Source of the DNA: Rhizophagus irregularis
Lineage: Eukaryota; Glomeromycota; Glomeromycetes; Glomerales; Glomeraceae
Length of the DNA: 64,000 bases
Assembly: GCF_026210795.1 (NCBI RefSeq)
Contig: NC_089445.1
Location: 2,480,001 to 2,544,000, forward strand
Reading direction: 5' to 3'
Within the stretch, counting starts at the first letter, position 1; each line of letters opens with the position of its first letter. Below the pieces are notes generated by a model, which did no database searches, had not been told where the DNA came from, and worked only from the letters and a program-made list of their open reading frames with translations. A program made the position numbers and the translations under genes. Shown in pieces: positions 1,852-62,087 of this stretch.

Positions 1852-4800
1852 ATGAAACACTTTTATCTCACCATCAAGGTAAATTTTTTTTTTTTTTAAA
1901 AAGAAATGTCTCAAATTCTTGTTATTAATTATTTCACTTTTTACATGCAAATAGATTGTAACTACCGAAAAATTTGATAAACATCAAGGATTTGACCTTG
2001 TCAATTTTGATCATCAATTTTTATTTTATGATGTATATACATTTAAGATTCTGAAAGCCGAAACGTATAGTGTTTTTAAAGAAAATATTTCTCGAACTTT
2101 CAATGTCCCTTCGAAACAAGTAAGATTCTGGGTTTTTGTATATCGTCAGAATAAAACCATTCGACCTGATCATCCAATACCAGAATCTTATATGAATATT
2201 AGTAATACACTTTTTCTATATTTCTATATATATATTAAATTTATTATTATAATGATCTTACAATCATTTTATTTTATTGTGATAAATAGGTATGGAGGGA
2301 ATTCGTGATGAAATAGTTCCACTACAGAATGAATTGAAGTTATACATGGAGGTAGCAGACAAGCCAATAAATGATGAGGTGTATAATTGTTATATAATAT
2401 AATTCTTCCGACTTTTTTATGTTAGGGTTTAGAACTTATATTATCAAATATATGTAGACATGGTTCCCTTTAATTGAAGAAAATAAGAATATAATTGTTT
2501 TCCTCAAGTATTTTGATCCTGATACACAAACTTTGGAGTAAGATATATTTTTTTTTATTTATCCAATATATTAGAATAAAGATATTAACATATTATTATC
2601 ATACAGAGGTCTTGGTCATTTATATGTACAAGAGTTTGATAAAGTTGGAGATTATATTAATGTTCTCTGTAAGAGAAAGAATCTTCCACCAGATACTCCT
2701 TTGAAAATATATGAAGTAAGAATCATATTAAATGTCATAGAGTTATATAGTGGGTTTATAAATCTTTTTTAAAAAAATAATGTATCATTATAGGAAATAA
2801 AACCAAACATGATAGAAGAAATGAATCCTAATTTCACAATTAAACAATCAGAAATACAAAATGGGGATATAATTTGTTTCCAAAAGGCATCAAACATGAA
2901 GTATGTCTTCACCAATATTTATTTTGAAATATTAAATATTAAGCAAAATTTTTTTAATATCTTTTTAGGATCAGGGAACATATTAAAAGTATTCGTATCT
3001 TTGAAATTCCTAAGTTCTATGAATTATTATCAACTTTTACTGTCAAGGTAATTTTCAATAAAATAACACTTTTTTTTTTTATTGTTATTTATCCTATTTA
3101 TCATTATTTAAACAATAATATTTTTTTTGTACTGTATATAGGTTGTGACTGTTGAAAAATTCAAAAAGTATCAAGGGTTTGATCTTGCTAATTTTGAAAA
3201 CACGCCACTTTCTGATATATATTTATATAAGATCTTAATGAATACAACTTATGGCGTATTTAAAGAAAATGTTTCTCAATATTTCAATATTCCCTCTGAA
3301 CAAGTAAGGTTTTGGATTTTAGCGAGTCGTCAAAATGGAACTGTTCGACCTGATGTTCCAATACTAGAATCTTATTCTAATACAAGTAATATATTTTTAA
3401 TTATTATTTTTTTTTCCTTGAATTTTTTATTATAAAATTTTAATTTACTTCATTATACTAGGTATGAAGGAAATTCATGCAAGGTTGACTTCCCAAGAAG
3501 ATGAAATGAAACTTTATATGGAGGTAGCAGACAAAAAATTTAATGGCAAGGTATATAATTTTTATATAACTTATTTTGTCTTTTCAGATTTTTACCTTGA
3601 ATTTAAACTTATATATATTAATATATTATCAAATAAACTTTTGTAGACATTGCTCTCTTCGATAAAAGAAAATATTAGTATATTGATTTTCCTTAAATAT
3701 TTTGATCCCGATACGCAAACTTTAGAGTATGATTTATTTTTATATTTATCCTTTTATGAAATTTCTATCATATTTAATAAAAATCTTTATATTTAATCGT
3801 AGAGGTCTGGGTCAATTATATGTACGAAGGTTTGATAAAAGTAGTAACTATATTCATACTCTCTGTAAGAAAAAGAATTTTCCATTAGATACACCTTTGA
3901 AACTATATGAAGTGAGCAAATTTAAATATTATAGAATTATGTATCATTTAATAATGATGAATCTTTTTAACATATTATATATAATTATAGGAAATCAAAC
4001 CAAATATGATTGATGAAATAGATCTTAGATTCACTTTCCAACGATTAGAGTTACAAAATGGTGATATAATTTGTTTTCAAAAGAATTTAACGGAAAAAGA
4101 GTGTGTATTAAAAACTTTATTACCTTTTAATACTAGATATTAATTATTAAAGATCCTTTAATACCTTTTTTTTATTAGAATTCAAGAGCATATTGAAGCT
4201 GGTCGTATTCATAGTATTCCTCAGTTTTATGAATCTTTGTCTTTACATACTGTTTTTTCATTCAAGCCAAGATTGAAAAATTATCCTAAATTTAATTTAA
4301 TATTAAATAAAAAATTAACATATGATCAAGCATGTATAGTCCACTTTTTTTATAGTTTTGATATATATTATATAATTATTTAATTAATCTTACATTATTA
4401 TACTGTAGGTTGCTGAAGCAGTTGCTTTTCATTTGAACATAGATCTACTTAAAATTCGATTTGAAAAACCGTATGACCCAATTGAACAAACTGCAAATCG
4501 CGCCCTTTTAGATATGATTCGGAAACCAAAAGTATATTATGAAATACTGGATGGAGATATTATAGAACCCGGAAAGCCTGAAGATACAGAAAAGGAAAAG
4601 TTCTTTAAAATCATTTGGCTTGGAAACACTATTAAAAATGAGGTAGTGTACATATATATGTGTGTATTTTTTGTGTACAGTAGTATATCATAGAACAAAA
4701 AAAATTGATTAAATTAATTTTAGGAAATTATTGATATTCGCCTTCAAAAGGATGCCATTGTTAGTGAAATAATAAAAGAAATTTTAAAAAAGGTAACATT

Positions 4801-5518
4801 GTCATCACCAGATGCTAAAATAAGATTATATGAAGTTATGAATCATAAAATTCAAAAAGAGTATAAGGAAACCGAACTGACAGGTAGGATACAGGAATTT
4901 ATGACATTATATGCAGAGGTGAATTTATGTTATGATTTGTTTTTTATTGTTTATTTTTTGGTTATTTTAACTTGAATGCATATTCTCATTAATAATATGT
5001 GATTTACTGTATGATAATTACAGGAAATACCTCAAGATGAATTACTCGCTAATTCGAATGATCAAATAATACAAGTATATCATTTCATAAAAGATCCAAT
5101 ACAAACACATGGAATTCCATTTAAATTTGTTATTAAAAATGTAATTTTATTTATTAGTTTTTTGATTAAATAGCTTAAAGAATTTTAATATATATAATTT
5201 TTAAATTCAGGGTGAGACACTCACTGATATTAAGATACGTCTTCAGCTTCGGCTTGGTATGAATAAAATTGAATTTTCGAGAATAAGAATTGCAATTATA
5301 TCAGAAATAACATACGAAAAACCTGAATATCTCGAGGATGACGGTAAATTAATATAAATATTTTTAATTTTATTTTATATTCAATAATTTGTTAATGGTA
5401 CGTGATTTTATTAGATATAATCTTATCGGAAAGGGAATTGTCAAATACGGATTATCTGGGTCTTGATCACGTAGATGAAACTGAGAGCGCAGAGAAAATT
5501 ATTTACATTCGAGGCTAA
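1852..5518 (+). CDS. USP7-like HUBL-only protein, copy 1 (no catalytic domain)
   Basis: Spliced CDS, 18 exons: 1852-1878, 1955-2201, 2290-2378, 2458-2537, 2607-2715, 2794-2900, 2969-3047, 3142-3385, 3462-3550, 3647-3726, 3803-3911, 3991-4100, 4179-4329, 4409-4642, 4724-4918, 5024-5140, 5211-5343, 5415-5518. This totals 2304 nt, or 767 aa, and every junction is in phase. Motifs match the C-terminal ubiquitin-like region of USP7/Ubp15 deubiquitinases: HQGFDL, a VRFW...RP segment, FLKYFDPDTQTLE, GDIICFQK, QTHGIPFKF and a final LGLDHVDETE. The MATH and peptidase domains are absent; the 9-codon first exon corresponds to the HLYLTV-type stretch just after the catalytic domain. Exons 2-7 are repeated as exons 8-13, so HUBL1-2 occurs twice before HUBL3-5. 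The intron after exon 13 has a GC donor. The likely role is a non-catalytic binding or regulatory protein in the ubiquitin system, which is an inference. It is more diverged than the other two copies. Confidence 0.86.
4330..4408 (+). other. GC-AG intron 13 of USP7-like copy 1
   Basis: Exon 13 ends in CAA and the intron begins GCATGT. The next GT, two bases inside, would shift the frame and give an immediate stop, while the GC donor joins Q to VAEAVA as in the family. The paralogue at 58451-62087 also has GC here (60861), whereas the one at 50183-53782 has GT (52600). Confidence 0.75.
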
Positions 5519-61400: not shown

Positions 61401-62087
61401 ATAAAATTCAAAAGGAATATAAAGAAACTGAATTAATTGGTAGGATACATGAATTTATGACATTATATGCAGAGGTGAATTAATCAACAATTTGTTTTTA
61501 ATTATTTATTTTTGACAAAATTATTTTAACTTGAAGGCATATTCTACATTTAATAATATGTGTTATATGATAATTTACAGGAAATACCTCAAGATGAATT
61601 ACTCGCTAATTCTCATGATCAAATAATACAAGTATATCATTTCACAAGGGATCCAATGCAAACACATGGAATTCCATTTAAATTTGTTATTAAAAATGTA
61701 ATGTAATCTTATCTATAGCTAATTTTAAATGGTACAAGAATTTTTATTTTAATATAATAATTTTTAATTCAGGGTGAAACATTTGCTGATATTAAGATTC
61801 GTCTTCAATTTCGACTTGGTATGAACAAAACCGAATTTGCAAGAATAAGGATTGCAATTATACCTGAGTTCACATACAAAAAACTTGAATACCTTGAAGA
61901 TGATGGTAAGTGGATATAAATAATTTAACTCACGTTGTTATTATTTATATTAAATATATTTTTAATGTTATATTATTTATTAGATATAATCGTATCAGAA
62001 AAGGAATTGTCGAGTACAGATTATCTAGGTCTTGATCATGTAGATGAAACTGAGAGCATGGAGAAAATTACTTACATTCGAGGATAA
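58451..62087 (+). CDS. USP7-like HUBL-only protein, copy 3
   Basis: 18 exons: 58451-58477, 58563-58809, 58878-58963, 59052-59131, 59198-59306, 59371-59480, 59556-59643, 59718-59961, 60027-60115, 60205-60290, 60358-60466, 60533-60642, 60710-60860, 60949-61170, 61283-61474, 61581-61697, 61773-61905, 61984-62087. This totals 2304 nt, or 767 aa, in phase. Same organisation as the other copies: a short MEKKLLTIE exon, two HUBL1-2 blocks, then HUBL3-5 ending LGLDHVDETESMEKITYIRG. Intron 13 starts with GC. Exon 7 has 9 extra bases (TV repeats), exon 14 is 9 bases longer and exon 15 is 3 bases shorter than in copy 2; all changes are in frame, which argues for selection on the protein. Its promoter region carries the retroposon insertion. 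Confidence 0.87.

Follow-up and report, generated by a model that had tools for sequence, protein, structure and literature searches.

Three genes of the root-symbiotic, mycorrhizal fungus Rhizophagus irregularis encode the C-terminal ubiquitin-like (HUBL) array of the deubiquitinase USP7 without the enzyme itself, and each carries HUBL1-2 twice. The genes, here c1, c2 and c3, lie in a window of 64,000 nucleotides (contig NC_089445.1, here C17, positions 2480001-2544000; G+C content 27%) of an assembly of 146.7 Mb in 32 contigs. Two primers for the R. irregularis mating-type locus (PMC11414155) have one match each in this assembly, on contig C12 and oriented toward one another within 279 bases (about 300 in the paper), as befits R. 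irregularis or a very close relative (taxid 588596); in DAOM197198 the paper assigns the locus to chromosome 11, a numbering different from that used here. The three genes share a common origin, are constrained at the protein level, and stand in a genome with one full-length USP7 that keeps its catalytic cysteine (F1) and six full-length paralogues in which it is replaced (F2-F7). We consider it most likely, at a probability of about one in two, that they descend from a truncated USP7 with doubled HUBL1-2, and that their products act as scaffold or decoy modulating F1.

The exon models, made with a purpose-written spliced protein-to-DNA aligner, reproduce the coordinates of the original prediction, which had claimed three intact 18-exon genes (table 1). 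They comprise 767, 762 and 765 codons in c1, c2 and c3 with neither frameshifts nor in-frame stops, by spliced alignment and codon count; TAA follows directly after each last exon, and the introns measure 61-113 nucleotides (nt). After exon 13 the intron has GC-AG borders in c3 and probably also in c1, where the exon was re-set to the GC donor to give 767 codons; all others are GT-AG. The predicted length changes in exons 3, 7, 14 and 15 are present, to which exons 6 and 10 have to be added, and every difference is a multiple of three.

A Pfam scan found PF12436 (ICP0-binding) above cut-off in two, two and three stretches of c1, c2 and c3, PF14533 (USP7_C2) once in each, and PF00240 (ubiquitin) marginally above cut-off in c2 (26.9 vs 25.4 bits). 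No MATH or UCH domain was matched in c1-c3 at E up to 0.1, and F1, the positive control of the same scan, showed both MATH_2 and UCH. All 15 solved proteins that match c3 at E up to 0.001 are human-type USP7 chains. The five-HUBL array typical of USP7/Ubp15 is thus complete by Pfam, with PF12436 and PF14533 well above their cut-offs, and by alignment of c3 to human USP7, with HUBL1-2 encoded once by exons 2-6 and again by exons 8-12 in all three copies, as predicted. Exon 7 (79-82 nt) lies between the two blocks; its start resembles that of the HUBL3 exon, and it ends short of the second HUBL1. A scan of viral contigs returned no relatives of the c3 exon 2 product.

The original prediction would fall if these exons were joined to upstream MATH or peptidase exons, and at the DNA level none were found in the stretches searched. 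Residues 1-540 of F1 gave no tblastn match with E below 0.96 in the 9.9 kb before c1, below 1.3 in the 10.0 kb upstream of c2, below 3.0 in the 4.7 kb upstream of c3, or below 0.99 in the 44.7 kb from c1 to c2, whereas the F1 gene itself was returned at E 0. Both Pfam and these searches therefore leave c1-c3 without the N-terminal MATH domain and without the UCH domain with Cys, His and Asp that define USP7/Ubp15. It might be supposed that unseen 5' exons still supply one of these domains and that the enzyme-free genes are an illusion of the models, as exon 1 is only 27 nt long and matches the last part of an exon that is internal in the full-length gene; given the searches upstream, we regard this as highly improbable. 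The nearest UCH match upstream of c1 (L002, C17:2470481-2472199) does not alter this: it is by eye a USP5-type gene outside the USP7 family, and F1 1-540 does not match it at E 1e-3.

Searches of the genome found no further HUBL-only genes, with 48 of 48, 28 of 28 and 59 of 71 candidates scored; since one search scored 59 of its 71 candidates, the genome-wide family counts are lower bounds. A genome search with PF00917 (MATH) gave no match, nor did it in any control, which marks the limit of searching exon by exon, as the spliced F1 shows MATH_2.

The open frames of c1-c3 show the constraint that the original prediction had proposed. Pairwise ratios of nonsynonymous to synonymous divergence (dN/dS) are 0.36, 0.38 and 0.40 (bootstrap upper bounds 0.45, 0.48 and 0.54), and a purpose-written GY94 likelihood gives the three genes a joint ratio (omega) of 0.34, with twice the log-likelihood difference (2 delta lnL) 110.7 against omega 1; none of these is near 1, the value that would have spoken for absent selection. 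By part, omega is 0.41 in exons 1-7, 0.41 in exons 8-13 and 0.23 in exons 14-18. Of the exon indels 5/5, 8/8 and 3/3 are multiples of three, against 9/37, 10/40 and 3/33 of those in introns. In the absence of constraint the three branches should have accumulated about 18.0, 6.7 and 6.8 stops, and none is observed, so the open frames are not due to chance. As a control for decay, a copy on contig C16 (P12, locus L012) is broken by 9 frameshifts and 2 stops within the HUBL span. At the same settings neither kind of break occurs in F2-F7 or, from the second block onward, in c1-c3; the DNA identity of P12 to F1 is 70.8%, against 70.5, 69.1 and 68.2% for the three HUBL-only genes.

Rhizophagus irregularis is rich in duplicated genes, and its genome holds this decayed copy as well as C-terminal relics of the USP7 family, which might suggest that c1-c3 are likewise dead or unexpressed duplicates whose frames have survived by luck. 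With omega well below 1, every exon indel in frame, no stops where several are expected, and P12 as an example of the outcome without constraint, we think this quite improbable. The frame breaks and the omega near 1 that mark a pseudogene are both absent from c1-c3. Because the trees described below make the common ancestor of c1-c3 a HUBL-only gene, the constraint acted on the HUBL-only form.

The DNA marks where the truncation lies. The earliest matches collinear with the full-length genes begin at 1854, 50178 and 58445, that is, at exon 1, which corresponds to the 3' end of an exon, here the linker exon, that lies between the catalytic domain and HUBL1. In c1 this exon is recognizable mainly as protein (KHFYLTIK, compared with RHLYLTVK of F3). 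Some 190-230 bases before the start are common to c2 and c3 and not found in c1. Short, isolated matches of 56-108 nt between the flanks of c2/c3 and F4/F5 were not counted as homology.

Phylogenetic analysis of exons 14-18 places c1-c3 in one clade (support 100/100, and 93/94 with human USP7 added), and their first HUBL1-2 blocks also cluster (95/94 unrooted; 92/92 with human USP7). The second blocks group c2 with c3 (99/96) and c1 less firmly (87/90) in the unrooted tree; rooted with human USP7 they are unresolved from each other and from the full-length genes. Taken together, the trees and the matches at exon 1 indicate that c1-c3 have a single origin from a truncated USP7. One USP7 copy would have lost everything upstream of the linker end before HUBL1 and doubled HUBL1-2, probably by joining the HUBL3 exon to the linker exon; the resulting gene would then have been duplicated twice to give c1, c2 and c3. 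Exon 7 resembles exon 13, where HUBL3 starts, at its beginning and probably the linker exon at its end. The sequence CTTACTGT is present both in exon 13 and in exon 1 of c2, for which reason an in-frame internal duplication via a short shared sequence would be the simplest account.

The wider family consists of seven genes with MATH, UCH and HUBL, of which F1 was scanned with Pfam and F2-F7 had their domains assigned by alignment to F1. Five lie on C17 (2.46-2.61 Mb) and two on C16. F1 (C17:2460606-2466004) aligns with human USP7 over residues 53-1106 (E 3.1e-218) and keeps Cys210, His452 and Asp469. It is the only one of the seven with the catalytic cysteine, which is Ser in F2 and F3 and Gly in F4-F7; the codons are TGT in F1 alone, AGT in two and GGT in four. 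The Gly before GHY is changed to Glu in F2-F5 and to Lys in F6 and F7, a change not taken as inactivating, and in F3 a His replaces the first Asp of KFDDD. In the models of F3-F7 the first coding exon is unreliable, as is the last one of F6, and these exons were left out of the trees, of the dN/dS estimates and of the count of cysteines. The intron that precedes the UCH exons of F4 has A instead of G at its donor, which makes the model forced there, and F6 seems to lack the tail; both copies may thus be failing, although F4 was kept in the Cys-less count.

The catalytic domains of the six Cys-less copies have an omega of 0.26 (2 delta lnL 168.1) on a fixed topology. Had the cysteine been lost repeatedly, some of this tree would be older than the losses, and only the estimates for sister pairs could be relied on: F6-F7 is still constrained (omega 0.32, 2 delta lnL 32.0), and F4-F5 has an omega of 0.54 that does not differ significantly from 1 (2 delta lnL 3.0). 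In the tree rooted with human USP7 the F1 branch has length zero and the order of the Cys-less copies is unresolved, so that it does not decide between one loss and several; the cysteine codons and the shared change before GHY would fit a single one. The HUBL3-5 exons of F1 and F5 (L009) differ by a dS of 0.08 and their catalytic domains by 0.21, and silent divergence so much lower in the former suggests gene conversion. Two further loci, L013 (C7:3350091) and L014 (C26:2810330), are frameshifted C-terminal matches to the family and probably relics. With one Cys-intact USP7 beside six Cys-less full-length paralogues, the HUBL-only genes can be seen as the far end of a loss of catalysis that extends beyond them, and most of this USP7 family appears, from its sequences, to have turned from enzyme into binder.

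What the HUBL-only proteins may do has to be read against human USP7, for which the papers named here and below are drawn on in excerpt. Ubl1-3 are described as a binding platform without direct influence on activity, and Ubl45 with the tail as activating the catalytic domain; activation by Ubl45 in trans has an apparent dissociation constant (KD) of 110 uM (60 uM for catalytically dead full-length protein), and for the catalytic domain loaded with ubiquitin Ubl45 has a KD of 0.59 uM (PMC6335408). Mutating I1098 or I1100 abolishes activity (review PMC6502913), and the KxxxK pocket of Ubl2 requires E759, D762 and D764 (PMC4457826). By alignment to human USP7, both isoleucines correspond to isoleucines in F1. 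Aligned against F1, the I-x-I place reads I-Y-I in c1 and T-Y-I in c2 and c3, with Thr at I1098; when c1 is aligned directly to human USP7, the alignment ends before these positions. The places of E759 and D764 are kept in all six HUBL2 copies of c1-c3.

The product of each gene would be some 765 residues long and made up of seven ubiquitin-like domains (1-2, 1-2, 3, 4, 5), without an enzyme. Such a non-catalytic USP7 tail may serve as a scaffold or decoy for the partners of the HUBL array, the doubled HUBL1-2 block would add valency, and the single Cys-intact USP7, F1, would be modulated as a result; the expression, the binding and the direction of this effect we infer. HUBL4-5 and the C-terminal tail might instead bind to F1 at its catalytic domain and activate it, or stand in for the tail of F1 itself. 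Exons 14-18 are indeed the most constrained part of the genes (omega 0.23), c1 has both isoleucines like F1, and human Ubl45 can activate in trans and has submicromolar affinity for the ubiquitin-loaded domain (PMC6335408); the apparent KD values of trans activation in the same paper, however, demand high concentrations, and c2 and c3 have Thr at a place where mutation abolishes human activity. We therefore regard general trans-activation as rather improbable, and the human trans data together with the I1098 and D762 places favor scaffolding or decoy action with a changed choice of partners, although c1, to judge by its tail, could still activate the enzyme.

Two observations weigh against the scaffold or decoy as we propose it. 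The place of D762 is Asn in all six HUBL2 copies of c1-c3, so that the usual partners may bind less well or differently; Asn is also found there in F2 and F7, and Asp in F1. In addition, the start site of c1 is uncertain, with eight ATGs in the 240 nt before it.

The HUBL-only and the Cys-less full-length proteins might also work together in one complex that holds ubiquitylated substrates and keeps F1 away from them. Constraint is seen in both classes (omega 0.34 and 0.26), and four Cys-less genes, of the six in the genome, are on C17 at most about 135 kb away from the HUBL-only genes; linkage of this kind may, however, reflect nothing more than tandem duplication, and F4 has a changed splice donor and F6 apparently no tail. 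We consider such a complex unlikely, if somewhat less so than general trans-activation. Rather more credit, though still tentatively, might be given to a three-tier USP7 system in which one active enzyme, six full-length copies with MATH and catalytic folds but no catalytic cysteine, and three enzyme-free tails whose partner-binding block is doubled would tune signaling by competition and scaffolding.

Compared with USP7/HAUSP/Ubp15 (peptidase family C19), c1-c3 share the order of the HUBLs, PF12436, PF14533, the E759 and D764 places and, in c1 as aligned against F1, the I-x-I; they differ in lacking MATH and the catalytic domain, in the doubled HUBL1-2, in the Asn at the D762 place of six blocks and in the Thr at the I1098 place of c2 and c3. 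Pseudo-deubiquitinases acting as allosteric activators or scaffolds are described in the excerpts of PMC10919355 and PMC7863924, and share with the genes studied here the loss of catalytic residues with family domains kept. This is a direct fit for F2-F7, which by alignment to F1 have the fold without the nucleophile; the HUBL-only genes are not pseudoenzymes in the strict sense, because the catalytic fold is wholly absent. The Ubl45 fragments of PMC6335408 likewise have the tail acting apart from the enzyme, but are engineered pieces, whereas here the tail is encoded by genes and has HUBL1-2 twice. A survey of protein family expansions (PMC8778642, in excerpt) reports C19 peptidases in especially large numbers among aquatic early-diverging fungi and in Mucoromycota. 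In searches of the open-licence literature on USP7, ubiquitin and family expansion in R. irregularis, and on pseudo-deubiquitinases, the one paper that has both R. irregularis and USP7 concerns potato traits, and we found no description of this USP7-derived family, which agrees with the earlier suggestion that it may be undescribed: the parts are known from USP7, and their arrangement and genome setting were not found described there.

The window also holds a tandem family, mostly on the minus strand, with copies at 10282-13248, 28418-31683, 38209-41479 and 43275-46219 and partial copies near 16627-17101 and 24474-26777. The copy at 28418-31683 has motifs of an ABCG-type half-transporter by eye (Walker A and signature), and Pfam scans of the four fuller copies, with one open frame taken per copy, gave no match. 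The plus strand has open frames of an ion-channel-like protein at 19027-22600, with PF00520 above cut-off at 21930-22319. Just upstream of c3, on the minus strand at 56581-58137, is a basic open frame of 518 amino acids that is perhaps derived from a mobile element; a Pfam scan of it gave no match.

Table 1. Features of the three HUBL-only genes, in positions of the window.
Feature	Position	Strand	Remarks
c1, HUBL-only gene	1852..5518	+	18 exons, 767 codons (770 with downstream GT donor at exon 13)
c1 exon 1	1852..1878	+	Remnant of linker-exon 3' end (catalytic domain to HUBL1); weakest exon
c1 first HUBL1-2 block, exons 2-6	1955..2900	+	
c1 exon 7, junction exon	2969..3047	+	HUBL3-exon start, then probably linker end
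c1 second HUBL1-2 block, exons 8-12	3142..4100	+	
c1 exons 13-18, HUBL3-5 and C-terminal tail	4179..5515	+	Tail KIIYIRG
c2, HUBL-only gene	50183..53782	+	18 exons, 762 codons
c2 exon 1	50183..50209	+	ATG corresponds to a Met codon within the linker exon of full-length genes
c2 first HUBL1-2 block, exons 2-6	50323..51230	+	
c2 exon 7, junction exon	51306..51384	+	
c2 second HUBL1-2 block, exons 8-12	51457..52374	+	
c2 exons 13-18, HUBL3-5 and tail	52449..53779	+	Tail KITYIRG
c3, HUBL-only gene	58450..62087	+	18 exons, 765 codons; exon 13 donor GC
c3 exon 1	58450..58476	+	ATG as in c2
c3 first HUBL1-2 block, exons 2-6	58563..59480	+	
c3 exon 7, junction exon	59556..59637	+	
c3 second HUBL1-2 block, exons 8-12	59718..60642	+	
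c3 exons 13-18, HUBL3-5 and tail	60710..62084	+	Tail KITYIRG

In the literature consulted, in part as excerpts, the USP7 tail acts apart from its enzyme only in engineered fragments; here it is found in constrained genes of a fungus whose symbiosis with plant roots is widely important. If expressed, this set of genes would be a natural test of trans-regulation, of decoy action and of pseudoenzyme function in the ubiquitin system, and the three-tier system, if true, would be a naturally evolved regulator built from the enzyme's own regulatory domain.

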